A stretch of 64,000 nt of DNA from Bradyrhizobium barranii subsp. barranii (GTDB lineage Bacteria > Pseudomonadota > Alphaproteobacteria > Rhizobiales > Xanthobacteraceae), in contig NZ_CP086136.1 in the NCBI RefSeq assembly GCF_017565645.3, positions 10,089,501-10,153,500 on the forward strand, in the 5' to 3' direction. The notes below the pieces were generated by a model, which ran no database searches, was not told the origin of the DNA, and saw only the letters and a list, made by a program, of their open reading frames with translations. The stretch's first letter is position 1, and every line of letters starts with the position of its first letter. Shown piece by piece: positions 21,228 to 64,000 of the stretch. The translations under genes were made by a program, and so were the position numbers.

Positions 21228-21272
21228 TGGCGATCCCGGCATGACTCGAACATGCGACCTACGGTTTAGGAA
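21228..21272 (-). other. attL core: 3' fragment of a tRNA-Arg(CCU) gene
   Basis: On the minus strand the 45 bases run from an anticodon loop (TTCCTAA, anticodon CCT) through ACCGT, a T-arm GCATG-TTCGAGT-CATGC and acceptor strand CGGGATC to the encoded G-CCA. The 5' half of the tRNA is absent: the next bases do not pair with the anticodon stem. This is the displaced 3' end left by site-specific integration at a tRNA gene. The adjacent integrase supports that reading. The intact tRNA should lie at the far end of the island, outside this window. Confidence 0.8.
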
Positions 21273-21407
21273 AACGAAAACATTACTTTTCCAACGTTCG
21301 CCAACGTACGTCATAGCCCCCGTAAGGTCCTCTTTATACTTGCTTTTCCCTCCCCAAGGTGCATCCTCGTTAGGCGCTCCAACTCGCCCCTTCGAGGTGC
21401 CAAGGCG

Positions 21408-22526
21408 GTGCCACACATCAAGCTTTCAGACGTCGGCCTTCGGTCTTTGCCTCTCCCTCCGAAAGGGACGGTGGACTATTGGGACCTGAGCCTTCCATCA
21501 TTCGCTTGCCGTGTCTCGCAGGGTGGCGCAAAGACCTTCATCCTCAAGACCTACAACTCGCGCCGAGCGATCGGGAGATGGCCCCTCATCAGCCTTGCGG
21601 CGGCTCGCCGTGAGGCAAAGCGAATTCTCGCCGAGAAGACGCTGGGCCGGATCCAACCTCAATCCATAACCGTCGCGAAAGCGCGGGAGCTCTTCCTCAA
21701 GGAGAAAGGGAAAGCAAGGCGAGTACGGACGGTCCAAGATCTAAAGGACCGCCTCGACCGTCACTTCGACATTCCAGGGCAGCTTGGGAAGGTAACTCAC
21801 AATCAGATCGTTCGACGACTTGAAGCGATCAAAACGCCCCAGGAATTCAACGCGGCGCTCCGCGTGGGACGAACCTTTTTCACGTGGTGCACCAACCGTC
21901 GCTACATCACCGAAAACCCTACAAGGGGTATCGACCGCCGCTCGGTCCTGTCCCGGACGCGGGTCCTCTCCGATGAAGAACTCAAGAAAGTTTGGACTGC
22001 ATGCTCCGAGCCTCATAAGGACATGCCGGAGGGCTATCGCACAATCGTCAAACTATTGATCCTAACGGGCCAACGCAAAACTGAGGTCGCAGGTTTGGAT
22101 AAGGCGCACGTCTCTTATAATCAGAAAACTGTCTCTCTTCCAGGCACCTTAACCAAGAACAAGCGAGGGCATGAACTTCCGGTAGGCAACTTGGCTCAGT
22201 CTATCCTGGCTCCCCTGCTCACATGCAATTCTCTTTTGTTTCCAGCTCGCGGCAGATCAACGCCATTTAATGGTTGGTCGAAGAGCAAGAAAGCACTCGA
22301 CAAAGCGAGTGGTGTCACCAATTGGACGCTTCACGATCTTCGCCGCACATACCGCACAATTCACGCTCGCATCGGCACGATGCCCCACATCGCCGAACGC
22401 CTGATCAATCATGTCTCGTCCCGCTCAGACGTCGAAGATATCTACGACAGGCATACTTACCTACCTGAAATGGCGCGCGCGATGAAAAATTACGAACACT
22501 ACCTCCTTCAGAACGTGCTACCTTAA
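21408..22526 (+). CDS. Tyrosine-type site-specific integrase
   Basis: A 372-aa phage/island integrase. The N-terminal DUF4102-like arm-binding region (about residues 1-90) is short. A core-binding helical domain follows at about 90-180 and the catalytic domain at 190-372. Catalytic residues are R223 (TGQRKTEV), a Lys near 250-252, H309 and R312 (LHDLRRTY), H335 (INHVSS) and Y346 (IYDRHTY), so the set looks complete. It begins 136 bp from the tRNA-fragment att core and probably integrates and excises this island. It is followed by a palindrome and a small excisionase-like gene. Confidence 0.93.
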   Translation: MPHIKLSDVGLRSLPLPPKGTVDYWDLSLPSFACRVSQGGAKTFILKTYNSRRAIGRWPLISLAAARREAKRILAEKTLGRIQPQSITVAKARELFLKEKGKARRVRTVQDLKDRLDRHFDIPGQLGKVTHNQIVRRLEAIKTPQEFNAALRVGRTFFTWCTNRRYITENPTRGIDRRSVLSRTRVLSDEELKKVWTACSEPHKDMPEGYRTIVKLLILTGQRKTEVAGLDKAHVSYNQKTVSLPGTLTKNKRGHELPVGNLAQSILAPLLTCNSLLFPARGRSTPFNGWSKSKKALDKASGVTNWTLHDLRRTYRTIHARIGTMPHIAERLINHVSSRSDVEDIYDRHTYLPEMARAMKNYEHYLLQNVLP

Positions 22527-22546: not shown

Positions 22547-22562
22547 AGCCGTCGCGACGGCT
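22547..22562. promoter_or_regulatory. Perfect 16-bp palindrome before the AlpA-like gene (module A)
   Basis: AGCCGTCG-CGACGGCT is a perfect palindrome 20 bp after the integrase stop and 21 bp before the AlpA-like ATG. It is preceded by gtcggctgac. The module B copy is at 56026-56041. Conservation in both suggests an operator, possibly for the AlpA-like protein itself. A short terminator for the integrase gene is the alternative. Confidence 0.6.
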
Positions 22563-22583
22563 CCCAACAGATGGAGCTAAGCG

Positions 22584-22802
22584 ATGACTGGAAAGGAAGT
22601 GGTCAACTGGCGTGGGGTTAAGGCACTTGGAATTCCCTACAGCCGCACGCACTGGTTTAGGCTCTGTGCATCTGGTGAGGCACCGATGTTTTTCAAACTA
22701 CGTGCTCACAGAAACAGTCCGCCGGTCTGGTGGCTGCACGAGATTATCGAGTGGCTCGAAGCTCGCGCAAAGGCCAAGCCTGCCGACGCTCCGAGAAAGT
22801 AA
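22584..22802 (+). CDS. Small AlpA/excisionase-like DNA-binding protein (module A)
   Basis: A 72-aa basic protein. WRGVKALGIPYSRTHWFRLCASGEAPMFFKLRAHRNSPPVWWLHEIIEWLEARAKAK has the layout of AlpA-type winged-HTH excisionase/regulators. These have a helix pair, then P-x-x-x-K-x wing residues, then a W-x-x-x-E-I-x-x-W helix. GGAGCTAAGCG lies upstream. Directly following the integrase gene, it may act as directionality factor or regulator. The copy at 56063-56281 differs at only three residues. Confidence 0.75.
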   Translation: MTGKEVVNWRGVKALGIPYSRTHWFRLCASGEAPMFFKLRAHRNSPPVWWLHEIIEWLEARAKAKPADAPRK

Positions 22803-22809
22803 GGAGCGG

Positions 22810-22842
22810 GGCTGGCCCTCCAAAGCCAGCCCTTCCTCCTTA
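22810..22842 (+). terminator. Rho-independent terminator after the AlpA-like gene (module A)
   Basis: GGGCTGGC-cctccaaa-GCCAGCCC is a perfect 8-bp stem followed by TTCCTCCTT, 7 bp after the stop. The same structure follows the module B copy at 56288-56320. Confidence 0.8.
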
Positions 22843-22882
22843 GAGGTTTTCCTGGCGATCCAGCCTTATACCCCGCCATACG

Positions 22883-23016
22883 CCCCGCCTTTAGGGTAAG
22901 GCGGGGTCGACGGTTGGCATGCGCTGGCCTGGGGCAGCATGTATGGTCGACAAACCCCGACTTGCCGTGCGACTTTGGTGGTGCTGCCGCACCACGACGC
23001 GCGAAAGCGCGGGCAT
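22883..23016. other. Conserved three-hairpin block (module A), candidate oriT or structured RNA
   Basis: In the 460-bp gap before the 147-aa gene lie three perfect hairpins. They are CCCCGCCTT-tagggt-AAGGCGGGG (22883-22906), GTGGTGC-tgcc-GCACCAC (22978-22995) and CGCGC-GAAA-GCGCG (22998-23011, a GNRA loop). The block recurs at 59531-59664 with only scattered changes, and all three stems are retained. Conservation beyond the rest of the gap argues for a DNA or RNA structure. An origin of transfer, a regulatory leader or a recombination site are possible; the sequence does not decide. Confidence 0.6.
22891..23016 (-). CDS. Possible short leader ORF in the conserved block (module A)
   Basis: A 41-codon frame on the minus strand begins at an ATG with an unusually strong GAGGAGGAACGC upstream. 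Its stop falls in the loop of the first hairpin. The peptide is basic (M-P-A-L-S-R-V-V-V-R-Q-H-H). In module B the same start and ribosome site are kept, with one residue changed, but a CAG-to-TAG change ends the frame after 30 codons (59572-59664). It may be a leader peptide or fortuitous within a conserved non-coding block. Confidence 0.3.
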   Translation of the reverse strand: MPALSRVVVRQHHQSRTASRGLSTIHAAPGQRMPTVDPALP

Positions 23017-23264
23017 GCGTTCCTCCTCATATTGGAGATTGATCCATCTCAGACGTCGTCCGAGCCTCATCAATCTCTTCATCATGAGGACAAGCTTTCA
23101 GCGCAGTGGCTCCGAAGATGCGGGAGAGCTCTGGCTCGGCTTACCACGAGCCGACGGACAGAGCTTAGCCTGATAGGAGTGAGATCGTATGACGGGAAAC
23201 ACTATCTTTTGCTCCTCAAGCGTGCATAATCCTTTCTTTGCTTCCTTTGCAGAGGAGTTATCCC

Positions 23265-23708
23265 ATGCAATTAAAGCTCAAGCGCTCACAGCGCACGGGC
23301 GGCATGCTGGGCGGAAAAGTGATCTTTGCTCTCGATGCACGCACCGATCTGACGTCCGACGAAAAAGGATTGGTGAGTAAGTACGGGCTTGGAAAGCTCG
23401 CCGTATACGACAGCGAGGCGCGTAAGAAACACGGGGAGGCGGCGTACGGTCACTTCGATGAGAGCGCAAGCAGAACCACTGGACGTTCGCTTTGGAAAAG
23501 CGCTCGCGGCATTGCCAGTGCTGCCATGATGGCGCTTTCGCTCCGGATCACTGTCGAGACCTTGATGAGCGGCCAACACATCGAATGCAAGGATCTCGAC
23601 GAGCTGCTTGGCGCCGAAGCGGCCATTCTGAATGCCTGCAAAAACCTCAAGGCGTATCTTGAAACGGCACAGACCTTCGACGGGCGGGAGGACGTCGTTG
23701 AGTTCTAA
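23265..23708 (+). CDS. Conserved 147-aa protein paired with the ATPase (module A)
   Basis: A soluble 147-aa protein that I do not recognise. AGAGGAG upstream sets the ATG at 23265. The N-terminus is basic and beta-like (MQLKLKRSQRTGGMLGGKVIFALDARTDLT). Then come DEKGLVSKYGLGKLAVYDSEARKKHG and a helical second half with IASAAMMALSLRITVETLMSGQHIECKDLDELLGAEAAILNACKNLKAYLE. The final 11 bases overlap the TTG start of the ATPase, so the two are translationally coupled. The module B homologue is about 93% identical. A partner or regulator of the ATPase is the natural inference. Confidence 0.8.
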   Translation: MQLKLKRSQRTGGMLGGKVIFALDARTDLTSDEKGLVSKYGLGKLAVYDSEARKKHGEAAYGHFDESASRTTGRSLWKSARGIASAAMMALSLRITVETLMSGQHIECKDLDELLGAEAAILNACKNLKAYLETAQTFDGREDVVEF

Positions 23709-25821
23709 GCTTCCGAAATACGTGCCTCCGTCCCCGTTCACGCCGTTTCTTCGGCGTTTCACGGACGAACGGGCGCGTGATCTGGCTGAAACGATCGGCC
23801 TCTACAATGAAGTGCGCAATACGTATGTCGGTTCGCTCTGGGCCAATCCCCAGGCGATTGAGCATGTAAATACGTTGATCGCCGAACGGGTCGGCGAGGC
23901 TGTCGATCTGCCGAATTCATCTACGCTCTTGAACGCACTCGACCGCTGTCAGCAAGAGATTCTCGCTCTTGAGACCGCGATCTTTGCCTTCCCGGAAATC
24001 GACCTGAAGACTGCTGTTCTCTCCCTGAAGGAGCATGTTGATCTTCGCCAGTACCTGCGCGCCAAACAGCACTTCCTTGCCAACGACGAGCGCGTCGCCG
24101 AGCTCCTTATGGATACGCTCGCCGGCGTGTTTGAAGCGATTGCCTCGGCGCTACCAAACCTACAGGACACCAATGACACGGCACCGCCACTCACCGTCCC
24201 TGTTGTGTGTCTTCTCCGCAATCCGGGCGATCTCATCGCCCGCCTGATAGCTACGATCTCCCAGCGGGAGACCGCAGAAGCAGGTCTATTTTCAGCGCTC
24301 CAAGACCGCCTGTACAGAAATGTATGTCTCGCCTCGGGCGTTTCCCCGAACGATGAGAAGCCGCGTAAGCGGCTCGTCGAGGCAGACAACTCCGATCTTC
24401 CTCCCATGGAGCTCGCGGAAGCCTATTTGAGGGAAACGCCTTTTCTCGACCTCTTCCTCTGCCCAATACCCTTTTGCATTCCCGCAAAGGCTCGTTTCGA
24501 GCACCAATGGATTGTTGCGCCGCCAGGCGCCGGCAAGTCGACCCTTCTCCAATACCTAATCTTGCGCGACCTTGAGCTTGTAGCCGCAGATCAAGCGTCC
24601 ATCGTCGTCATGGAAAGCAACCGCGATCTGATCAAGGCGATCGAAGGCCTCAGGGTATTTGCGCCCGGTGAACGCCTTGATGGCAAGCTCGTCGTCATCG
24701 ATGCCGAAGATGTCGAATGGCCGGTCGCGCTCAATCTATTTGACGTCGGCATCGGGGAGACGCACTCCTACTCGCCGGCGGAGCACGAAGGCTTCCGAAA
24801 CGCCGTGCTCGCGCTCTACGATTACATCTTCAGTGCCTTACTTTCGGCGGAGATGACCAGTCGCCAGAATACCTTATTTCACTTTACGATCGAACTTCTT
24901 CTCACGATCCCGTCAGCTACAATCGACACGCTCATTGATCTCATGCAGCCCGGAGGCCTTGCCAAATTCAAGGAGCATCTGCTCGTCCTTGATTCTGATG
25001 CGAGGCGCTTTTTCGAGCTGAAGTTCAACAGCAAGGAGTTCGACCGCACCAAGGAGCAGGTCGTTGACCGGCTATTCGCTGTTAAGCGCATCCGCACTCT
25101 GTCTCGGATGTTTGCGGCGCCGAGATCCAAGTTCGACTTTTTCACTGAAATGAGTGCGGGGAAGGTCATTCTCATCAATGTTCCGCAAAGCCTGCTTCAA
25201 GAAGACGGCGTGGAGATCGTGGGTCGTTTTTTCATTTCAATGATCTTGCTCGCTGCACATAAGCGTCAGCTTCTTCCAAAGGATCAGCGTCTCCCCTGTT
25301 TCGTCTACATCGACGAATGCCAGGATTTTATCAAGCGTGACCCAAAGATCCCGGTCATTCTTGACCAGGCGCGTAAGCTGAATGTGGGCGTGGTCCTTGC
25401 GCATCAGCGATTGCAGCAGATGCAACCGCACGTCCTCGATGCACTCTATGGTGCAACTGCAATAAAGTTCGCCTCAAAAATCAGCGACGCGGCGGCCCAT
25501 GCGCTCGCGCGCGACATGCGAACCACCCCCGAATTCATCCTCAATCAGCCGCAGTACCATTTCGCCGCCTATGTCCGCGGGGTGACAAATGCCGCGCTGT
25601 CGGTCGGCATCCCGGCCACCGACCTAAATAGGGCGCCGCGGATGACAGCCGATGAGCACAATGCTGTTCGGAAGAGCATTCGAGAGCGCTACGCGGTCAA
25701 GCCAGTGTCTACGGAAGTTTCTCGGACGGATGTTAGGGAGCGGCAAACCTCATCAGAAGAGCCGCCCAATGCGGGATCGGCGGCTGTCCCTGAGCGGGAC
25801 GGTGATGATTGGCGTTCATAG
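23698..25821 (+). CDS. HerA/TraG-like DNA-translocase ATPase (module A)
   Basis: A 707-aa P-loop ATPase of the HerA/FtsK/VirD4 type. The TTG start at 23698 has GGGAGGACGTCG upstream and is kept in the module B homologue. Walker A is P275-T282 (PPGAGKST) and Walker B is F535-E540 (FVYIDE). Between them lies a TraG/TraD-like region (LDQARKLNVGVVLAHQRLQQMQ follows, a sensor-type block). There is no clear N-terminal membrane anchor, unlike VirD4. It probably pumps DNA during transfer of the element. No VirB genes are visible here. The 270-residue N-terminal domain is unrecognised. Confidence 0.8.
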   Translation: MSSKLPKYVPPSPFTPFLRRFTDERARDLAETIGLYNEVRNTYVGSLWANPQAIEHVNTLIAERVGEAVDLPNSSTLLNALDRCQQEILALETAIFAFPEIDLKTAVLSLKEHVDLRQYLRAKQHFLANDERVAELLMDTLAGVFEAIASALPNLQDTNDTAPPLTVPVVCLLRNPGDLIARLIATISQRETAEAGLFSALQDRLYRNVCLASGVSPNDEKPRKRLVEADNSDLPPMELAEAYLRETPFLDLFLCPIPFCIPAKARFEHQWIVAPPGAGKSTLLQYLILRDLELVAADQASIVVMESNRDLIKAIEGLRVFAPGERLDGKLVVIDAEDVEWPVALNLFDVGIGETHSYSPAEHEGFRNAVLALYDYIFSALLSAEMTSRQNTLFHFTIELLLTIPSATIDTLIDLMQPGGLAKFKEHLLVLDSDARRFFELKFNSKEFDRTKEQVVDRLFAVKRIRTLSRMFAAPRSKFDFFTEMSAGKVILINVPQSLLQEDGVEIVGRFFISMILLAAHKRQLLPKDQRLPCFVYIDECQDFIKRDPKIPVILDQARKLNVGVVLAHQRLQQMQPHVLDALYGATAIKFASKISDAAAHALARDMRTTPEFILNQPQYHFAAYVRGVTNAALSVGIPATDLNRAPRMTADEHNAVRKSIRERYAVKPVSTEVSRTDVRERQTSSEEPPNAGSAAVPERDGDDWRS

Positions 25822-25832
25822 CACACAGAAGA

Positions 25833-25860
25833 AAGCCCGCCGAAGCGGGCTTGTTGTTAG
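25833..25860. terminator. Bidirectional terminator after the ATPase (module A)
   Basis: AAGCCCGC-cgaa-GCGGGCTT (25833-25852) is a perfect 8-bp stem followed by GTTGTT. It separates the rightward ATPase gene from the convergent zinc-knuckle gene, whose stop is at 25857. The same hairpin is at 63788-63807 in module B. Confidence 0.8.
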
Positions 25861-26045
25861 TTCGCTGCGTCGACCGTCTTTGAAGGACATGCGCTCGCGC
25901 GGTGTCCAGGCTCGTTGCATTTCGAGCATTTGGGAACTCGGCGCTCGCGAACCACGCCGCCGAGAAGCTCGCCGAGTTCGGCGTTTAAGTCCTCGCGCTT
26001 GGCGATCAGCTCTTTGACGCGCGCGATCTTGCTGTCCAAATCCAT
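25857..26045 (-). CDS. Small coiled-coil CCHC zinc-knuckle protein (module A)
   Basis: A 62-aa protein. AAAGGAGGTGGTTCAC sets the ATG at 26045. Residues 1-36 form a charged amphipathic helix (SKIARVKELIAKREDLNAELGELL). Then comes a single retroviral-type zinc knuckle, C40-x2-C43-x4-H48-x4-C53 (CSKCNEPGHRASAC). Such knuckles bind single-stranded nucleic acid and are uncommon as stand-alone bacterial proteins. A homologue with the same spacing is at 63813-64000. Nucleic-acid chaperone during element processing is a reasonable guess. Confidence 0.75.
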   Translation of the reverse strand: MDLDSKIARVKELIAKREDLNAELGELLGGVVRERRVPKCSKCNEPGHRASACPSKTVDAAN

Positions 26046-26244
26046 GTGAACCACCTCCTTTCCGACGGAAGAGATAGGCCGTGTAGTATCGCACGTCTGC
26101 TCGATTCAGCCGTGCGAGCGTCGGTTCGTGTTGTGCATGTGCCGGTATGTGGAAGGAAGAGCCGCAGTAATGATTGTTCACTTTTTCTTGGGTACACAGG
26201 GACAGACGGCCTGCATGCGAAGGCATCTGATACATTGCTTTCCG

Positions 26245-27204
26245 ATGGACGAGACCTTAACCCCAGCTTCGAAACGTCGGCCCCGTTTCCGCCGCTCGTC
26301 AGAACCCGTTCTCTTTCGCATCACTGACGGTGACGCGCTTATCCTGCAGCAACTAGCTCGCTATCGCTTCTTGCGATCCACTCACATTGCAGCGCTGGTT
26401 GGGCGCTCACTGGATCGCGCTAACGATCGACTATGCCGCCTATATCATGCTGGATATGTGGATAGGCCGCGGGCGCAGCTCGACTACTACCCCACGTCCG
26501 GATCGACACCTATGGTCTACGCCCTTGGTGACCTCGGTATACAATTTCTTGCCGAGCGAGGAATGGAGTTCGCAAATCTCGAGTGGAGCCGGAAAAACCG
26601 GGAAGCGGGCCGGCCGTTCATTCAGCATCAGCTGGAGGTCGTCGACTTTCACGTCGCCCTGGAACAGTCCACGCGTCGTCGGAATGACGTAAGGCTGCTT
26701 CATCCCGAGGAGATTATCACGAGTTCACCTGAGAGCACCCGCAAGAAGCGAAATCCGTTCGCGCTGCGGGGCAGCATCTCGCGCGACGGGAGTTCGCTCG
26801 ATATCGGCGTGATTCCCGACCTTGTGTTCGGCCTGATGTTTCCGGACGGGTCCCGCCGCTGCTTTATGGTAGAGATCGACCGTGGCATCATGCCCATCAC
26901 GCGAGCAGATGTCACCCAATCCGGCTTTGAGCGAAAGATGCGCGCGTATCTCGCCGCTTATGCCGAGGGGCGACATATGCAGCAATTCGGTTGGAAGACA
27001 TTCCGCGTACTCGTTGTGACAACCGATCAACAGCGCCTTCAATCCATGCTCGGAGCACTGCAACGGCTTAAGGCGGAAGATCCGGGCCCGACTTTGTTCT
27101 TCTTCGCGTTGCGGGACGAGCTGCGCGTCGAAGGTCCGATCGAACAGGTATGGCGCGATGGATTGGAGAAGAATACGAGATTGACACCAGGCCCACGCGC
27201 ATGA
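26245..27204 (+). CDS. Replication-relaxation family protein
   Basis: A protein of about 319 aa matching the replication-relaxation family (PF13814), typical of conjugative plasmids and ICEs. Residues 15-80 carry a winged HTH (ITDGDALILQQLARYRFLRSTHIAALVGRSLDRANDRLCRLYHAGYVDRP). The C-terminal half has a nuclease-like alpha/beta region (GVIPDLVFGLMFPDGSRRCFMVEIDRG with D and E residues). The start is uncertain: the frame is open to ATGs at 26215 and 26170, the latter with GGAAG upstream. It probably acts in initiation or nicking of element DNA. The module B counterpart would be beyond the window. Confidence 0.7.
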   Translation: MDETLTPASKRRPRFRRSSEPVLFRITDGDALILQQLARYRFLRSTHIAALVGRSLDRANDRLCRLYHAGYVDRPRAQLDYYPTSGSTPMVYALGDLGIQFLAERGMEFANLEWSRKNREAGRPFIQHQLEVVDFHVALEQSTRRRNDVRLLHPEEIITSSPESTRKKRNPFALRGSISRDGSSLDIGVIPDLVFGLMFPDGSRRCFMVEIDRGIMPITRADVTQSGFERKMRAYLAAYAEGRHMQQFGWKTFRVLVVTTDQQRLQSMLGALQRLKAEDPGPTLFFFALRDELRVEGPIEQVWRDGLEKNTRLTPGPRA

Positions 27205-56062: not shown

Positions 56063-56281
56063 ATGACTGGAAAGGAAGTGGTCAACTGGCGTGGACTTAA
56101 GGCACTCGGAATTCCCTACAGCCGCACGCACTGGTTCAGGCTCTGCGCGTCTGGTGAGGCACCGATGTTTTTCAAACTACGTGCTCACAGAAACAGTCCT
56201 CCTGTGTGGTGGTTGCACGAGATTGTCGAGTGGCTTGAGGCTCGCGCCAAAACCAAGCCTGCCGACGCTCCGAGAAAGTAA
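56063..56281 (+). CDS. Small AlpA/excisionase-like DNA-binding protein (module B)
   Basis: A 72-aa protein identical to the module A copy except V12L, I55V and A63T. It has the same GGAGCTAAGCG ribosome site. Near-identity with silent DNA changes indicates selection on the protein. Here it lacks an upstream integrase. It may still act on the palindrome or att sites of either module. Confidence 0.75.
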   Translation: MTGKEVVNWRGLKALGIPYSRTHWFRLCASGEAPMFFKLRAHRNSPPVWWLHEIVEWLEARAKTKPADAPRK

Positions 56282-56387: not shown

Positions 56388-57038
56388 CTACGCACCGCGC
56401 TTGAAGCGTATAGGCATCCAGAACTGCCGGAGGGCCTCGACGGTTGCTGGAATGTTGCGCCAGGCGTTTTGGATGATGGGCTGCGTTCCCAGCGTGCGCC
56501 GGGCCGGGGGTAGCAAGGGTCGACCGGCGTCGTCGATGCAATGGACCAAGATCGGCCGCAGCATAAGGTGTTCGGTTCCATTCGGGGGGAGAAGCCGCGA
56601 CCAGACGAGAAGCCGAAGCTTCATGACGGCGTAGAAGCCCATGCACCAGGGCTGCGGGTCGACTTCGCCGTCCGGTGATCGCACGAACAGCGGCTCGAAG
56701 CTCTCCGGTCTCGTCGACAGCGTCTCGCTGATAGCGTTGTGGCGCATCAGCGTGGCGGCGATTGCCGAGAACTCCTCGGTGTCGTGATTGAAGGCGTCGG
56801 GATCTACGCCGAGGAGCGGGCACACCCATTCCTCGGACGCCATCGAGACCGGCCCGGCGACGACCGCGGCCACCGCGCCATCGAGCATGGAGAGCGACGT
56901 CGCCCGCGGATGCCGAAGCGTCGGCGACCTGGCGCGCTTGCTGATCCATTGCCCGAGCCGTTCGAACGACATGGCATAGTCCGCCATCGTCGTCTTGCGT
57001 GCTTTTCGCGTTCCCCGCCCTTGCTTCGGCTTCGTCAT
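56388..57038 (-). CDS. UPF0149/YecA-family passenger protein of IS66
   Basis: A 216-aa protein. LSMLDGAVAAVVAGPVSMASEEWVCPLLG is the UPF0149/YecA signature, and the C-half has WCMGFYAVMKLRLLVWSRLL. Such genes are often carried at the end of IS66 elements in rhizobia. It overlaps the tnpC stop by 4 bp. Role in transposition is unknown. Confidence 0.8.
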   Translation of the reverse strand: MTKPKQGRGTRKARKTTMADYAMSFERLGQWISKRARSPTLRHPRATSLSMLDGAVAAVVAGPVSMASEEWVCPLLGVDPDAFNHDTEEFSAIAATLMRHNAISETLSTRPESFEPLFVRSPDGEVDPQPWCMGFYAVMKLRLLVWSRLLPPNGTEHLMLRPILVHCIDDAGRPLLPPARRTLGTQPIIQNAWRNIPATVEALRQFWMPIRFKRGA

Positions 57039-58585
57039 GCCACGGCCCGCTTTTCGGCTTCGCGTGCGGCCTTCCAGTTCCAGGCCAGAAGTTCGTGAAG
57101 CTGGTTGGTCTTCGTGGCGCCGCTCACCATGCGATCGAGAACGTCGACGAGATACGCCTCGGGGTCGAGGCCATTCAATTTCGCTGTGTTAAGAAGCGAA
57201 GCGAGTATCGCCCAGGTCTCGCCCCCGCCTTCGTCACCACTGAACAACGAGTTCTTTTTTCCGATCGCAATTGGCCTGATCGATCGTTCGACCGTGTTGG
57301 TGTCCGGCTCGAGCCGCCCGTCATCCAGGAACGTCGTCAGGCCCTGCCAGCGTTCGAGCATGTAGTCGATCGCCTTGATGAGCGTCGAGCGGCGGGAGAT
57401 CCCGTCCTTCACCGCGATCAGACGGGCCCTCAACGCCTCCATCAGCGGCTTCGTCTCGGCCTGTCGCGTCGCGCGGCGTTCCCCAGCATCGAGACCGCGG
57501 ATCCTCTCCTCGATCGCGTAGACGGCCGCAATGCGCTCGATGACCTCCGCGGCGAAGGGTGAGTTCGTCGTCTTGTGCACCCTCACGAAGTTGCGGCGCG
57601 CGTGAACGAGACAATACGCCAGCTGGATCTGGCCCGACATCATCGCATCGCCCGCCAGCGAGGCGTAGGCGGCATAGCCGTCGACTTGCAGCACGCCTTC
57701 GAAGCCGGCTAACTGCGCCACGATCTCCTTTTTGCCGCGACCACCTGCGAACACGTAGGCGACCGCCGGCGGCGCCGGCCCCTTCCACGCCCGATCGTCC
57801 GTCGCGTGCGCCCAGAACTGGCAGATCCTCGTGCGGCCGCGTCCCGGATCGAGCACTGGCATCGGCGTCTCGTCGCAGAACAGCCGCTCGAAGCCGTGCA
57901 TAGTCTTCAGTTGCAGATCGTAGAGGCCCCTGACCAGCCACGCCGCGCTCCCCATCCAGCGCGCCAGCGTCTGACGGTCGACGACGACACCCTGACCCGC
58001 CAGGATCTGCGTCTGGCGATAGAGCGTCGATTGCCAGGCATATTTGGCCGCGGCGATATGCGCGATCAGCGCCGTCGTTGCCATGCCGCCCTCGACGAGC
58101 CGCGCCGGTGCCGGGGCCTGGACAATCGGGCCCTCACAGGAGCGGCAGGCGTATTTTGGACGGATCGTGCGGAGCACACGCAGCCACGCGGGAACCCGAT
58201 CGAGCGCTTCGCTGCTCTCCTCGCCGATCCGATGCATCTGACCCGTGCAGCACGGGCACAGCGTGGACGCCGGCTCGATCACCCGCTCGACCCGAGGCAG
58301 ATGCGCCGGCAGCGCGCCGATGTTGCGCTTCGCTTTGCGCCGCTCCGGCCGCGGCGCGTCCGGTTTGTCGTCATTGGCCGGGAGCTGTGAGCCGGCGGTC
58401 CGTTCCAGATCAAACGCGATCTGTTCGGCGCAGACGATCGCCGCGCGCTCCGATCGTGCGCCGAAGATCAGGCTCTTCAACGTGGCGATCTCTGCGCGCA
58501 GATCATCGTTCTCGCCTTCGAAAGCCAGCACCATCTCGGCAAGAGCCGCAGGGTCAGAGGGGAGATCTTCGGGGCGAAGCGCCAT
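57035..58585 (-). CDS. IS66 transposase TnpC
   Basis: A 516-aa IS66 transposase. It has an N-terminal leucine-zipper-like region (LAEMVLAFEGENDDLRAEIATLKSLIFG) and a zinc-finger block (STLCPCCTGQMHRIGEE ... KYACRSCEG). The DDE domain has CDETPMPVLDPG, LQVDGYAAYASL and ERSIRPIAIGKKNSLFSGDEGG. All parts are present. Confidence 0.93.
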   Translation of the reverse strand: MALRPEDLPSDPAALAEMVLAFEGENDDLRAEIATLKSLIFGARSERAAIVCAEQIAFDLERTAGSQLPANDDKPDAPRPERRKAKRNIGALPAHLPRVERVIEPASTLCPCCTGQMHRIGEESSEALDRVPAWLRVLRTIRPKYACRSCEGPIVQAPAPARLVEGGMATTALIAHIAAAKYAWQSTLYRQTQILAGQGVVVDRQTLARWMGSAAWLVRGLYDLQLKTMHGFERLFCDETPMPVLDPGRGRTRICQFWAHATDDRAWKGPAPPAVAYVFAGGRGKKEIVAQLAGFEGVLQVDGYAAYASLAGDAMMSGQIQLAYCLVHARRNFVRVHKTTNSPFAAEVIERIAAVYAIEERIRGLDAGERRATRQAETKPLMEALRARLIAVKDGISRRSTLIKAIDYMLERWQGLTTFLDDGRLEPDTNTVERSIRPIAIGKKNSLFSGDEGGGETWAILASLLNTAKLNGLDPEAYLVDVLDRMVSGATKTNQLHELLAWNWKAAREAEKRAVA

Positions 58586-58635
58586 ATCGCAGAGCTACAC
58601 GAACGCACTCGCAATCGCCAGCAAAACAAGACGCT

Positions 58636-58992
58636 TCAGGCAACCTTCGTCGGCCGCTTCGTCACCTTCGGGACCACACGCGACCACTCCGCAAGACCTT
58701 CAATCAGCATCGCCAGTTGCGCCCCCGTCACCGGCATCGTACCCTCGCGAACAGGTGGCCAGGCAAAGCCCCCATTCTCCAGCCACTTCGTCGCTAGAAC
58801 CATTCCCGAGCCGTCAAAAACCAGTAGCTTCAAACGATCCGATCGCTTCGATCGGAAGACATAAACGTCACCGCTGTAGGGCTTGCCGCCTAATCCCTCC
58901 GCTACCAGCGCGACAAGGCCATGAACGCCTTTACGAAAGTCAATCGGCTGCGTCGCGACGAACACACGGACCATTGGACCGAAAGAGATCAT
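58636..58992 (-). CDS. IS66 accessory protein TnpB
   Basis: A 118-aa IS66 Orf2. VFVATQPIDFRKGVHGLVALV and DVYVFRSKRSDRLKLLVFDGSGMVLATKWLENGGF are diagnostic. Its ATG overlaps the tnpA stop by 4 bp. Required for transposition in studied IS66 members. Confidence 0.92.
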   Translation of the reverse strand: MISFGPMVRVFVATQPIDFRKGVHGLVALVAEGLGGKPYSGDVYVFRSKRSDRLKLLVFDGSGMVLATKWLENGGFAWPPVREGTMPVTGAQLAMLIEGLAEWSRVVPKVTKRPTKVA

Positions 58993-59411
58993 CGCGTCGA
59001 TCTCACCGCCGCCAGCACGCGCTCCAGCGTCGCGGCGTCGACGCCGACGGGCACGCGCACCGTCGCGCCCGCGATCATCACCTCGATCCGCTCGGCCGGA
59101 TCCGTCAGAACATGCGCCTTATCGATCGCGTTCGGCTGCGCCTCGACGGCGGCCTCGAGCCTGACTTGCACGAACTGCGGCGCTTCGCTCGACGCGAGCC
59201 GCGCCTGGCGCCGCCACACACTGAGCAGTCCCCGGTTCACCCCGTTGCGTCGAGCCACCTCGGAAATGCTCGTCTCCGGATCGGCACTCTCGGCCACGAT
59301 CCGCGCCTTCTCCGCATCGCTCCAACTGCGCCGTCGCCTCTCCCCTGTGATCACCTCGATCCGCTGATAGGAGGCGGCATCATGCCCGTCTTGATGTCTG
59401 TCTTGATGCAT
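58989..59411 (-). CDS. IS66 accessory protein TnpA
   Basis: A 140-aa IS66 Orf1 with an HTH: RRRSWSDAEKARIVAESADPETSISEVARRNGVNRGLLSVWRRQ. It is the first gene of the IS66 operon. The start may be the ATG at 59411 or one slightly downstream. Confidence 0.88.
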   Translation of the reverse strand: MHQDRHQDGHDAASYQRIEVITGERRRRSWSDAEKARIVAESADPETSISEVARRNGVNRGLLSVWRRQARLASSEAPQFVQVRLEAAVEAQPNAIDKAHVLTDPAERIEVMIAGATVRVPVGVDAATLERVLAAVRSTR

Positions 59412-59900: not shown

Positions 59901-60344
59901 ATGCAACTAAAGCTTAAGCGCTCGCAACGTGCGGGCGGCATGCTCGGCGGCAAAGTCATCTTTGCGCTCGATGCGCGCACCGATCTCACTCCCGATGAAA
60001 AAGGACTGGTGAGCAAGTACGGTCTTGGAAAGCTCGTCGTATACGACAGCGAGGCACGTAAGAAACACGGCGACGCCGCCTATGGTCATTTCGATGAAGG
60101 CGCAAGCAGCACTACCGGGCGCTCACTTTGGAAAAGCACTCGCGGCATTGCCAGTGCAGCCATGATGGCGCTTTCGCTTCGGGTTACCATCGAGACCTTG
60201 ATGAGCGGCCAGCACATCGAATGCAAGGATCTCGACGAGCTGCTTGGTGCCGAAGCAGCCATTCTAAGCGCCTGCAAAAATCTCAAAGCATATCTTGAAA
60301 CGGCCCAGACCTTTGACGGACGGGAGGAGGTCGTTGAGTTCTAA
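59901..60344 (+). CDS. Conserved 147-aa protein paired with the ATPase (module B)
   Basis: A 147-aa homologue of the module A protein with 11 differing residues, mostly conservative. AGGAGAATTACTCC sets the ATG at 59901. Its stop overlaps the ATPase TTG start by 11 bp, as in module A. Strict conservation of length and overlap in both modules supports a functional pair. Confidence 0.8.
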   Translation: MQLKLKRSQRAGGMLGGKVIFALDARTDLTPDEKGLVSKYGLGKLVVYDSEARKKHGDAAYGHFDEGASSTTGRSLWKSTRGIASAAMMALSLRVTIETLMSGQHIECKDLDELLGAEAAILSACKNLKAYLETAQTFDGREEVVEF

Positions 60345-62454
60345 GCTTCCAAAGTACATACCTCCGTCTCCGTTTACGCCGTTTCTTCGGCGTTTTACGG
60401 ACGAACGGGCGCGTGACCTATCTGAAACGATGGTCCTCTACAATGAAGTGCGCGCTACCCATGTTGGTTCGCTGTGGGCCAATCCTAAGGCGATTGAGCA
60501 CATCAATACGTTGGTTGCCGAGCGCGTGGGCGAGCTTGTTGATTTGCCGCAATCATCCACGATTTTGAAGGCGCTCGACCGGTGCCAGCAAGAAGTGCTT
60601 GCCCTTGAGGCCACGATCTTTTCCTTCCCCGAAGTTGACCTGAATGCGGGGGTGCTTTCCCTCAAAGAGCATGTTGATCTTCGCCGCTATCTGCGAGCTA
60701 AACAACACTTTCTCGCCAATGACGATCGCGTAAGCGATCTGCTCATCACGGCCCTCCGTAATGTCAGCTGGGGCTTTATTTCGAGCTTGCCCGCCTTGTC
60801 CGAGAGCATGGATGCTGCGCCACTGACCGTTCCACTCGTCTGTCTGTTGCCTAATTCTCAGGAAGTGGTGGATAGAGTAATCGGAACTATCTGCAAAAAG
60901 GAGCACGTGGAAGCCGGTCTCTTTATCGCGCTGTACGAGCGATTGTACGCCAGTTTGTGCGAGGCCTCCGGGAACTCTCCCGAAGATGAAAAGCCTCGAA
61001 GGCCGATGATCTACGCTGCCGACTCCGAGCTTCCGCCTATAGAGTTGGTCGAGACCTACCTCAAAGGCACACCCTTCCTTGATCTCTTCCTCTGCCCCGT
61101 ACCCTTTAAGCTCCCGCAAAAGTCCCGCTTCGAGCATCAGTGGATCGTTGCGCCGCCAGGTGCTGGCAAGTCGACCCTTCTTCAGTACTTGATCTTGCGC
61201 GACCTTGAACTCGTTGCCGCGGATCAGGCGTCCATTGTCGTGATGGAAAGCAACCGCGATCTCATCAAAGCGATCGAGGGTTTGAAGGTATTTGCGCCTG
61301 GGGAACGCCTTGGTGGCAAATTGGTCGTCATCGATGCCGAGGACGTCGAGTGGCCAGTCGCGCTCAATCTCTTCGACGTCGGCATCGGAGAGATGCATTC
61401 CTACTCGCCGGCTGAGCACGAAGGGTTCCGAAACGCCGTGCTCGCGCTCTATGATTACATCTTCAGCGCGTTGCTTTCAGCCGAAATGACGAGCCGACAG
61501 AACACATTGTTTCATTTCACGATCGAGCTTCTGCTGACTATTCCGTCGGCCACCCTGGACACGCTCATTGACCTCATGCAGCCGGGTGGCCTTGCCAAAT
61601 TCAAGGAGCACCTCACCAAGCTTGATCCGGATGGGCGGCGCTTTTTCGAGCTGAAGTTCAACAGCAAGGAGTTCGACCGGACAAAGGAACAAGTTATCGA
61701 CCGGCTCTTTGCCGTCAAGCGTATCCGGACGCTCTCGAGAATGTTCTCGGCACCAAGATCGAAGTTCGACTTCTTCACTGAAATGAGTGCTGGGAAAGTT
61801 ATTCTCATCAACGTTCCGCAAAGCCTGCTTCAAGAAGACGGCGTGGAGATCGTGGGTCGTTTCTTCATTTCAATGATCCTGCTCGCCGCACACAAGCGTC
61901 AGCTTCTCCCAAAGGGGCAGCGCCTACCTTGCTTCGTGTACATCGATGAATGCCAAGACTTCATAAAGCGCGATCCGAAGATCCCGGTTATCCTCGATCA
62001 AGCACGTAAGCTCAACGTGGGCTTGGTCCTTGCTCATCAGCGATTGCAGCAGATGCAGCCGCACGTACTCGATGCGCTCTATGGTGCGACTGCGATAAAG
62101 TTTGCCTCGAAGATCAGCGACGCTGCGGCTCATGCGCTTGCGCGCGACATGCGAACAACCCCAGATTTCATCCTCAATCAGCCGGCATACCATTTCGCGG
62201 CATACGTCCGCGGCATGACAAATACCGCACTGTCGATCGGCATCCCGGCTACGGACTTTACGAAGCTCCCGCGCATGGCAGCGGCTGAATACACTGCCGT
62301 GCGCAAGCGTATTCGAGAGCGCTATTCGATCAGACCAGAAGCGCCGGGAACTGTTCAGAAGGAAGTCCGTGAGGAGCGAATGAACCGGGAGACAGCCTCA
62401 GAGCCTGCCCGTCCGGCCGAGCCGGACTTTGGGGGCGATGATTGGAGGTCCTAA
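60334..62454 (+). CDS. HerA/TraG-like DNA-translocase ATPase (module B)
   Basis: A 706-aa homologue of the module A ATPase. GGGAGGAGGTCG precedes the TTG. The P-loop (PPGAGKST) and FVYIDECQD Walker B are identical. From the P-loop to near residue 650 the proteins are almost the same, though many codons differ silently. Residues about 140-265 are clearly divergent (for example FISSLPALSESMDAAPLTVP against the module A version). That region may set partner or DNA specificity. Confidence 0.8.
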   Translation: MSSKLPKYIPPSPFTPFLRRFTDERARDLSETMVLYNEVRATHVGSLWANPKAIEHINTLVAERVGELVDLPQSSTILKALDRCQQEVLALEATIFSFPEVDLNAGVLSLKEHVDLRRYLRAKQHFLANDDRVSDLLITALRNVSWGFISSLPALSESMDAAPLTVPLVCLLPNSQEVVDRVIGTICKKEHVEAGLFIALYERLYASLCEASGNSPEDEKPRRPMIYAADSELPPIELVETYLKGTPFLDLFLCPVPFKLPQKSRFEHQWIVAPPGAGKSTLLQYLILRDLELVAADQASIVVMESNRDLIKAIEGLKVFAPGERLGGKLVVIDAEDVEWPVALNLFDVGIGEMHSYSPAEHEGFRNAVLALYDYIFSALLSAEMTSRQNTLFHFTIELLLTIPSATLDTLIDLMQPGGLAKFKEHLTKLDPDGRRFFELKFNSKEFDRTKEQVIDRLFAVKRIRTLSRMFSAPRSKFDFFTEMSAGKVILINVPQSLLQEDGVEIVGRFFISMILLAAHKRQLLPKGQRLPCFVYIDECQDFIKRDPKIPVILDQARKLNVGLVLAHQRLQQMQPHVLDALYGATAIKFASKISDAAAHALARDMRTTPDFILNQPAYHFAAYVRGMTNTALSIGIPATDFTKLPRMAAAEYTAVRKRIRERYSIRPEAPGTVQKEVREERMNRETASEPARPAEPDFGGDDWRS

Positions 62455-62585
62455 GTGCCGAGGCCGAACCTCGTGCGATCAGAAGGCGCTGACGGCGAAC
62501 ATAGCACGTGTGGGCGAAGGTTGATCTCGGTTCCGGACAACCCATCGGGCAAGCTCGACGCTCCCAAGCTAGAGGGGGAAACGAG

Positions 62586-63707
62586 ATGGATTACGCAACG
62601 CGAACACTGCTGAAGTCAGCCGGAATGAATGTAGGGTGGCTGCTTTCCAGCGGGTTCTTCTATTGGCTCGTGGCGTCCTCACCTGCAAGCGCTATAGTTT
62701 CACTTGTGGCAGCTATCGGCTCGGGTCTGCTGCTCTTCTTGGCCATCCGGATTTACTTGCTGTGGTTCGAAAGTATAAAGCAACATCCACCCAGCAATTT
62801 CGCGGTGCCGGCTCTAGCTCTCGTTGTCTATTTCTCTCTCCTGATCGCCATGTGGTCCTACTTGTACGTCTTTCTCGCGCGGACGGCAGAGGATGCAAGC
62901 TTTCCGTTCTGCTCCGGCGCTGATCCGATCGATCCGAAACAGTTCGGTCTTCTCGAATCCATCTATTTCGCCGTCATCTCCTTTGCCACGGTTGGCTACG
63001 GAGATATCTACGCGTGCACGAGCGGATCGCGCTGGGCGCTCGTGGCGGAACTTTCGAATGTCGTGACGATCGGTTTCATCGGGCTTCCTGCCCTCGTGAA
63101 CATGGTGATTGATCTCGCGCAGCGGAAGTTTGCAAACATCAAATCTACCAATGGCGTCACGGATATGCCCTTTGTCACGGGCACGTTGGTCGTCGGTATG
63201 GCAATTATCGCGTTCGCTGAGCCGGTGACTTACGAAGTTCTGACGGCGGGAAATATGCCCGACGGCGAGATTATCCAGATATACGCTGGGATTAGCGCTG
63301 CGATGCTCATCTCTATTGCGTTCGGCGCGCTCATGGTGGCGACTAACCGGATGCTGGGCGGGCATGACACGCGACCGATATTGCTCAAAAGGGCGATCCG
63401 GCTTGTCGTGCTGGGCTACGTGCTTTTCGTCGAGGGCATCGCCTACCTTTACCTTCTTATTGATCGGCCCGGCGCAAACGCCTTCGCGTTCGCAAGAAGC
63501 GGCGAGCATCGACTCGATTTTGGGAGCGCAAGTTATTTCAGCCTGACGACGCTCACGACGACGGGATTTGGCGACATCGCGCCGCTATCGCCGACAGCGC
63601 GGATGGCAACAATCGGGGAGATCATGGTCGGGATCGTGTTTGCCTTGTTCGCTTTCGGGCTCGTCATCTCGGCCATCGTGAGCCAGCGCGTGCAAAGCCG
63701 CGTATGA
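62586..63707 (+). CDS. Two-pore-domain potassium channel, eight predicted membrane segments
   Basis: A 373-aa membrane protein. AGAGGGGGAAACGAG precedes the ATG. Two K+ selectivity filters are visible: T135-D140 (TVGYGD) in ESIYFAVISFATVGYGDIY, and T325-D330 (TTGFGD) in ASYFSLTTLTTTGFGDIAPLS. Hydrophobic segments at about 14-32, 37-60, 73-99, 150-175, 197-222, 232-256, 270-292 and 342-366 place one pore loop after TM3 and one after TM7. There is no RCK or cyclic-nucleotide domain. Two such chains would make a four-filter pore. It is present in module B only, between the ATPase and the terminator. Confidence 0.85.
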   Translation: MDYATRTLLKSAGMNVGWLLSSGFFYWLVASSPASAIVSLVAAIGSGLLLFLAIRIYLLWFESIKQHPPSNFAVPALALVVYFSLLIAMWSYLYVFLARTAEDASFPFCSGADPIDPKQFGLLESIYFAVISFATVGYGDIYACTSGSRWALVAELSNVVTIGFIGLPALVNMVIDLAQRKFANIKSTNGVTDMPFVTGTLVVGMAIIAFAEPVTYEVLTAGNMPDGEIIQIYAGISAAMLISIAFGALMVATNRMLGGHDTRPILLKRAIRLVVLGYVLFVEGIAYLYLLIDRPGANAFAFARSGEHRLDFGSASYFSLTTLTTTGFGDIAPLSPTARMATIGEIMVGIVFALFAFGLVISAIVSQRVQSRV

Positions 63708-63787: not shown

Positions 63788-63812
63788 AAGCCCGCCGGAG
63801 CGGGCTTAACAG
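63788..63812. terminator. Bidirectional terminator (module B)
   Basis: AAGCCCGC-cgga-GCGGGCTT then AACAGTT. It is the module B version of 25833-25852 and separates the channel gene from the convergent zinc-knuckle gene. Confidence 0.8.
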
Positions 63813-64000
63813 TTAAGCTGTGAGTGCCTGAGTAGCCTTCGTTGGGCAGCCGTTGGCTCGATGTCCGGGCTCATTGCAGATCGAGCATTTGGGAACACGT
63901 CGCTCGCGCGCGGCGCCGCCAAGAAGCTCGTTCAGCTCGGAGTCCAGTTCTTCGCGCTTGGCGATCAACTCCTTAACTCGCGCGATCTTTCCGTCTAGCT
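63813..64000 (-). CDS. CCHC zinc-knuckle protein (module B), start beyond the window
   Basis: The last 61 codons plus TAA of a leftward gene: GKIARVKELIAKREELDSELNELLGG, then RVPKCSICNEPGHRANGCPTK. The C-x2-C-x4-H-x4-C knuckle is conserved with the module A protein. The start codon lies just past position 64000. Confidence 0.75.
   Translation of the reverse strand, partial: LDGKIARVKELIAKREELDSELNELLGGAARERRVPKCSICNEPGHRANGCPTKATQALTA

Follow-up and report, generated by a model that had tools for sequence, protein, structure and literature searches.

A tRNA-associated gene set in Bradyrhizobium barranii as a candidate DNA-processing module of MOBC-type integrative mobilizable elements

Gene set and second copy in the window

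We analysed a window of 64,000 nucleotides (nt) from the 11.4-Mb genome of Bradyrhizobium barranii subsp. barranii (C1:10089501-10153500); close protein matches that carry a name are likewise from Bradyrhizobium. Its region from 21.2 to 27.2 kb holds, in this order, a left attachment site (attL), a tyrosine integrase, an AlpA-like gene, a gene for a protein of 147 amino acids (aa), an ATPase (ATPase A), a zinc-knuckle gene, and a gene for a replication-relaxation protein (RR). Judged by sequence comparison, this gene set most likely helps the elements that carry it to move or copy themselves. The set recurs mainly in Alphaproteobacteria, on islands, a plasmid and some prophages, and because the same order is kept in many other genomes it reflects more than chance. 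Coordinates and identifying matches are collected in Table 1.

The AlpA-like protein of the window gave no Pfam family match up to E 1. Six homologues were compared with PF05930 (Phage_AlpA); four scored over the cut-off, one fell 0.1 bit short, and one had no match at E 0.01. The TTG start of ATPase A lies inside the end of the 147-aa gene, with an 11-nt overlap whose sequence is identical in the second copy of the set (copy 2). In both copies the zinc-knuckle gene is adjoined by a hairpin with arms of 8 bp each (AAGCCCGC/GCGGGCTT) and a 4-nt loop.

Across the genome, RR genes (PF13814) and full-length ATPase A genes were found only twice each, in the set at 21.2-27.2 kb and in copy 2. At the DNA level these copies share 80.8% identity over 2.86 kb, and 91.6% over 333 bp around alpA. 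A first-pass annotation of this DNA had described the gene order, the TTG overlap, the convergent zinc-knuckle gene and the hairpin as kept in a second copy, and all of this was borne out, with proteins 72-96% identical. The shared gene set is real, but the copy is not an uninterrupted one: no integrase was found beside it, an IS66 element separates alpA from the 147-aa gene, an ion-channel gene has entered, and RR lies beyond the window end. An NYN-domain gene is found downstream of RR in copy 2 (L008:1775-2404, PF01936 E 4e-39) and on plasmid p195_1 (L154:13264-13896).

Table 1. Features of the gene set, its second copy and the attachment site (window positions unless marked C1)
Feature	Position	Strand	Evidence and remarks
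attL, 3' part of tRNA-Arg(CCT)	21228..21274	-	Repeat of the tRNA; left end of 153-kb island block
Tyrosine integrase	21408..22526	+	PF00589 E 5.5e-12, PF13356 E 9.3e-8
AlpA-like gene (excisionase/regulator type)	22584..22802	+	PHROG 2790 E 0.027; homologues match PF05930
147-aa partner protein	23265..23708	+	475 homologues at E 0.001
ATPase A (HerA/VirD4-like)	23698..25821	+	TTG start, 707 aa
Hairpin, terminator-like, between convergent genes	25833..25852	.	8-bp stem; also 63788-63807 in copy 2
CCHC zinc-knuckle protein	25857..26054	-	PF00098 E 5.8e-6
18-nt block upstream of RR	26176..26193	.	Identical in both copies; weak candidate promoter or origin of transfer (oriT)
RR, MOBC-family relaxase candidate	26218..27204	+	PF13814 E 4.8e-20; model with predicted local distance difference test score (pLDDT) 87.6
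Copy 2 AlpA-like gene	56063..56281	+	Protein identity 95.8%
IS66 element splitting copy 2	57035..59411	-	PF03050 E 6.4e-88, PF05717 E 3.5e-31; 58989-59411 assigned by position only
Copy 2 147-aa partner	59901..60344	+	Protein identity 92.5%
Copy 2 ATPase A	60334..62454	+	Protein identity 80.2%
Ion-channel gene (cargo) between ATPase and knuckle, copy 2	62508..63707	+	PF07885 E 2.6e-19, residues read from 62583
Copy 2 zinc knuckle, reaching window edge	63813..63998	-	Protein identity 75.4%
Copy 2 RR, just outside window end	about C1:10153654-10154652		Protein identity 71.6%

Insertion at tRNA-Arg(CCT) and recurrence of the set

The island is inserted site-specifically, with repeats and an empty site. 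The att fragment is identical in 42 of 47 nt to the intact tRNA-Arg(CCT) at C1:10263638-10263714, and in 46 of 47 nt to the tRNA and the att repeat of another Bradyrhizobium genome (G134). Among the 24 tRNA-Arg(CCT) loci read, four, from related genomes, show the empty site (L157, L159, L168, L169), with the left-flank amidohydrolase 127-232 bp from the tRNA and the right-flank gene on the opposite side; the amidohydrolase-tRNA distance in the present genome is 154.8 kb. At the remaining 20 loci, its own among them, one or both flanks are missing within the 3 kb read.

The 153-kb block between the att fragment and the intact tRNA contains several genes of insertion sequence (IS) type, two ATPase A genes, two longer copies and short pieces of a second ATPase (ATPase B), and repeated regulator genes, and on these grounds we read it as a partly decayed accretion of several elements. 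Lying in such an IS-rich accretion, the two copies of the window may themselves be decayed. ATPase B (TrwB_AAD_bind, E 1.2e-11) comprises shorter relatives of ATPase A, with matches in this genome at 10184392 and 10243259. It is present at many loci of the family, accompanied by a DUF3768 gene, an HTH_3 regulator followed by a gene of 158-173 aa, a gene of about 470 aa for which no Pfam match was found at E 0.1, and a serine recombinase. Where other Bradyrhizobium genomes have both ATPases on one contig, these lie about 1 kb or 20-35 kb apart. Two short pieces of a further ATPase B stand just before the tRNA-Arg end of the block (C1:10259236-10259951, L013:5736-6451).

The same tRNA-Arg(CCT) site is occupied in G134 by a 44.5-kb prophage (G134:C1:441717-486292, L090-L092), which adjoins the same amidohydrolase and has a perfect 47-bp repeat. 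Its integrase, alpA, ATPase and RR genes lie at one end, with ATPase A in two frames, and ATPase B lies at the other.

When 195 genomes of the genus were searched with the ATPase, 23 gave matches, the present genome among them, and many of these matches were partial or distant. Genome contigs yielded at least 14 loci, viral contigs three, and a plasmid collection 13 records, none with 80% query coverage. Using custom profiles we tabulated 34 ATPase A loci, the window's two included and G134 (ATPase in two frames) and G004 (a fragment) left out. A partner gene lies within 100 bp of ATPase A at 27 of the 34 loci, and RR is on the same contig stretch at 28, within 200 bp at 20 and within 8 kb at all 28. 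Within 10 kb, an alpA-family gene is found at 23 loci and a tyrosine integrase at 15; ATPase B is on the same stretch at 16. An independent RR search of 385 genomes of the same class yielded 15 matches in 10 genomes: the window's own two, nine others over the cut-off and four sub-threshold. ATPase A adjoins RR in seven of the nine and in none of the four. At E 1e-10, an RR relative occurs in 16 of 265 genomes of the genus. The co-occurrence of these genes as an element family, many at tRNA genes, is supported. One genome (G348) has modules at tRNA-Leu, tRNA-Lys and tRNA-Phe, and the elements of G134 and G139 are flanked by tRNA repeats, which comprise the 3' 47 bp (perfect) in G134 and the 5' 41 bp of tRNA-Gly in G139.

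Cargo is varied and includes restriction and methylation genes. Seven of ten cargo proteins of related islands, picked as defence-looking, match PADLOC defence models at E 1e-5, four of the seven being DNA methyltransferases, and the PADLOC model mad8 is matched by ATPase A (E 7.3e-12) and ATPase B (L009:10640-11992, E 1.8e-19). The ATPase, its partner and RR could on this evidence form an anti-phage defence system on a defence island, a view that we consider highly improbable: partner and RR have no PADLOC match at E 0.01, and the module stays with alpA, often also with an integrase and a tRNA gene, whereas the cargo is variable. Possibly the mad8 model also picks up ATPases of mobile elements. 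At L070, L072, L073, L078 and in the window (62508-63707), 0.6-7.4 kb of extra DNA lies between ATPase A and RR, as if at a cargo site; it includes a methyltransferase gene in L072 and the ion channel in the window.

RR, ATPase A and its partner

The first-pass annotation saw no relaxase of a known MOB type, a statement that needs correction. RR scores 72.9 bits against PF13814 (Replic_Relax; cut-off 25.3), and this family is listed as MobC relaxase in Table 1 of PMC5357655. A P-D ... E-x-D motif has its D and its E in 22 of 22 RR proteins, phage-borne ones included, and L75, Y101, H137, P200, D201, E219 and Y244 are invariant in 44 RR proteins from which the phage-borne were left out. The structure model (pLDDT 87.6, predicted template-modelling score 0.85) runs from a winged helix through a helix, four strands and a helix to a strand, with D201 at the start of strand 202-207 and E219 in the next strand, 213-221. 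The second half of the modelled protein shows a weak resemblance to endonucleases, probably of PD-(D/E)XK type; the best PDB rows in Foldseek are the restriction endonucleases PfoI (E 1.7e-3) and MunI (E 8.1e-3), at low TM-scores. An N-terminal winged helix, a trait of MOBC relaxases, is present. The model agrees with the published description of these enzymes, an agreement that does not in itself prove nicking. The MOBC relaxase TraX of pAD1 combines an N-terminal winged helix-turn-helix with an endonuclease-like active site (PMC12857230); it is encoded, unlike RR of the window, on an Enterococcus plasmid, and the two are likened by description, not by sequence.

ATPase A has the motor motif GAGKS (Walker A). 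Its 147-aa partner has no Pfam match over the cut-off (best Kri1_C, 12.3 bits) and, at the thresholds applied, matched nothing in PHROGs, NCBIfam or PADLOC. The earlier remark that the ATPase lacks the VirD4 membrane anchor holds for the window (maximum hydropathy 1.07 in the first 150 residues) and fails for the family, in which an N-terminal membrane segment is clearly present in 6 of 31 ATPases; L083 is a borderline case, and L064 is truncated at the 5' end. All six anchored ATPases go with a second type of partner (F21), soluble in five cases and hydrophobic in one (G064). The 25 others comprise 19 with a partner of the 147-aa type (p147; weakly so in G017) and six without a recognised partner. 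Nine of the 19 p147-type partners have a membrane segment (maximum at least 1.8) and ten do not, the window's two among the ten. A mildly hydrophobic inner stretch is found in the ATPase as well in L068 and L070. Sequence comparison suggests a possible relationship between the two types of partner (hhalign probability 91, small alignments), and the p147 alignment has common ends flanking an exchanged middle.

A rather unlikely extension of these counts is a split coupling protein, in which the anchor of a VirD4-like ATPase would have moved to a small neighbour in part of the family and been kept in another. The module would then be portable between mobilizable islands, plasmids and temperate phages, as one DNA-processing set for conjugation and phage life. 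By the membrane-segment counts, such a change of sides applies to part of the family and not to the window. The distribution of membrane segments between ATPase and partner across the family allows a direct test of the requirements of a coupling protein.

The ATPase could also serve a transjugation-like export, in which DNA would be expelled by ATPase and nuclease with no type IV system involved, a mode proposed for TdtA of the Thermus element ICETh1. According to PMC5365140, ICETh1 of Thermus thermophilus is, like the island, inserted at a tRNA gene and has a recombinase, a HerA-class hexameric ATPase, a nuclease and no type IV genes. It differs from the island in having a NurA-type nuclease and a type IIG endonuclease instead of RR, and in generalized DNA donation; the analogy is one of description, not of sequence. 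Family members with a VirD4-like N-terminal membrane segment fit a coupling protein better, and we regard this export as very unlikely.

Mobilization, replication and known systems

The explanation that we favour, giving it about an even chance, is that the gene set is the DNA-processing module of a family of MOBC-type integrative mobilizable elements (IMEs). The integrase and the AlpA-type factor insert the element at a tRNA gene, as the repeats and empty sites show, and would also excise it, and RR would bind the excised circle and nick it at an origin. Together, ATPase A and its 147-aa partner would make up a dedicated pump resembling a coupling protein, which would deliver the nicked DNA to a mating pore supplied by a helper conjugative element. 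The island block gave zero matches to the VirB4-type family PF03135 and the relaxase family PF03432, the two families searched, and for these two the module is not part of a known type IV secretion system. VirB4-type matches are found elsewhere in the genome, on contigs C3 and C4 and twice on the chromosome, as are three PF03432 relaxase matches outside the block, so possible helpers may be present in the same cell. Of the proposed "self-contained DNA-processing/transfer module of an undescribed integrative-element family", the element family is supported and the self-containment is doubtful; because a helper would be needed without a mating pore, "mobilizable" is the better term.

CloDF13 and streptococcal IMEs are already known to use a MOBC relaxase and a VirD4-like ATPase of their own as a pair for mobilization. 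The mobilization region of CloDF13 (coupling protein MobB and relaxase MobC; MOBC1) has this pair and no mating pore of its own (PMC7431656). Unlike the island, CloDF13 is a plasmid, not inserted at a tRNA gene and with no integrase listed in its record, and unlike the window's ATPase, MobB carries a large membrane domain that transfer requires, according to the same source. It is likened to the window RR by family and gene pairing, without an established sequence relation. Class 8 of the streptococcal IMEs is integrative, with a PF13814 relaxase (Rel_PF13814/MobC), its own VirD4-family coupling protein and no mating pore, and differs from the island in its serine integrase and its Firmicutes hosts. 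Two such elements were counted in the 2017 survey (PMC5357655), and later 71 PF13814 IMEs in S. suis. In the passages of the published description considered here, neither a partner gene nor a second ATPase cluster is mentioned. What is new here is the partner protein, which bears a membrane segment in some members whereas the ATPase bears it in others, the second ATPase cluster, and the occurrence on prophages; a description of this element family was not found in the literature searched.

Several observations weigh against mobilization. The module is also carried by prophages, where conjugation is superfluous. No oriT was identified in the window module. Coupling-protein Pfam models are matched by the window ATPase A only sub-threshold (TrwB_AAD_bind, 12.5 bits for a cut-off of 20.5), while L068 and L082 score over the cut-off. 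A clear membrane segment is lacking from both ATPase and partner in the window clade (partner maximum 1.39), and removal of the MobB membrane domain abolishes CloDF13 mobilization; for TcpA of pCW3, transfer without the membrane domain persists at lower frequency (both from PMC7431656). The fold match of RR is modest, with no PDB row at E 0.001 and TM-scores of 0.20-0.36 for PfoI and MunI. An RR-profile search of the CloDF13 record, whose mob region reads as short frames, returned nothing over threshold. RR is absent from the stretch read at 6 of the 34 ATPase A loci, two of these contigs stopping 292 and 728 bp downstream. Finally, of nine tRNA-bearing contigs tested for a repeat, three have one and six (L068, L069, L071, L073, L078, L080) have none in the stretch covered.

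PHROG matches identified terminase genes on G134, G161, L083, L082 and G075b, some of which also have portal, head or tail genes. The G134 prophage has a terminase (E 2.9e-14) and a major head protein (E 3.6e-14), and that of G161 a terminase (E 1.6e-20), a portal (E 5.1e-79) and a major head protein (E 2.4e-86). L083 has terminase and portal, L082 a terminase (E 4.4e-26), and the G075b contig ends in a terminase fragment (E 7.2e-11). On these prophages the integrase, alpA, ATPase and RR genes are grouped at one end, with a primase-like gene next to them, and the terminase lies apart. The suggestion that the module might belong to a phage packaging operon was not borne out: although it sits on some prophages, it is separate from their terminase genes, and none of the four phage-derived families used (F48, F56, F61, F63) is represented in the 170-kb region of the window.

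The grouping at one prophage end argues for a tentative and less likely reading, namely a module for replication or maintenance of the excised circle, in which RR would nick an origin, ATPase A would act as a hexameric translocase or helicase, and a CHC2-type primase would prime in many relatives; islands, plasmids and prophages would share it for this reason. The primase-like family (PF01807, E 1.3e-9 in L075) occurs on nine contigs, phage and non-phage (G064, G075a, G075b, G134, G161, L064, L080, L082, L083). In addition, RR matches PHROG 9381, "replication initiation by nicking" (E 3.5e-4), and its fold matches proteins of Bacillus phages JL (E 1.9e-12) and G (E 9.6e-9). However, the window's island block yielded no member of the primase family, and membrane segments in many members of the family point to the envelope. 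In the ATPase tree, whose long branches leave the outer placements unsure, the window ATPases belong to an 18-row group (support 99/96) from which the phage rows G161, G075b, L082 and L083 are absent; the group includes L081 from IMG/VR, whose 21 kb shows none of the phage families used. The main reasons to doubt mobilization are that the window clade has no clear membrane anchor and that phage-borne copies exist, and on their account we keep a replication role in play at roughly one chance in four.

Islands of this kind, with their varied cargo, have no evident means of moving, a gap that a MOBC relaxase equipped with a pump of its own would fill. The triad of partner, ATPase and RR is also present on the Sulfitobacter plasmid NZ_CP081110.1 (L063), which MOB-suite types as non-mobilizable in PLSDB, so that elements of this sort may escape present typing methods.
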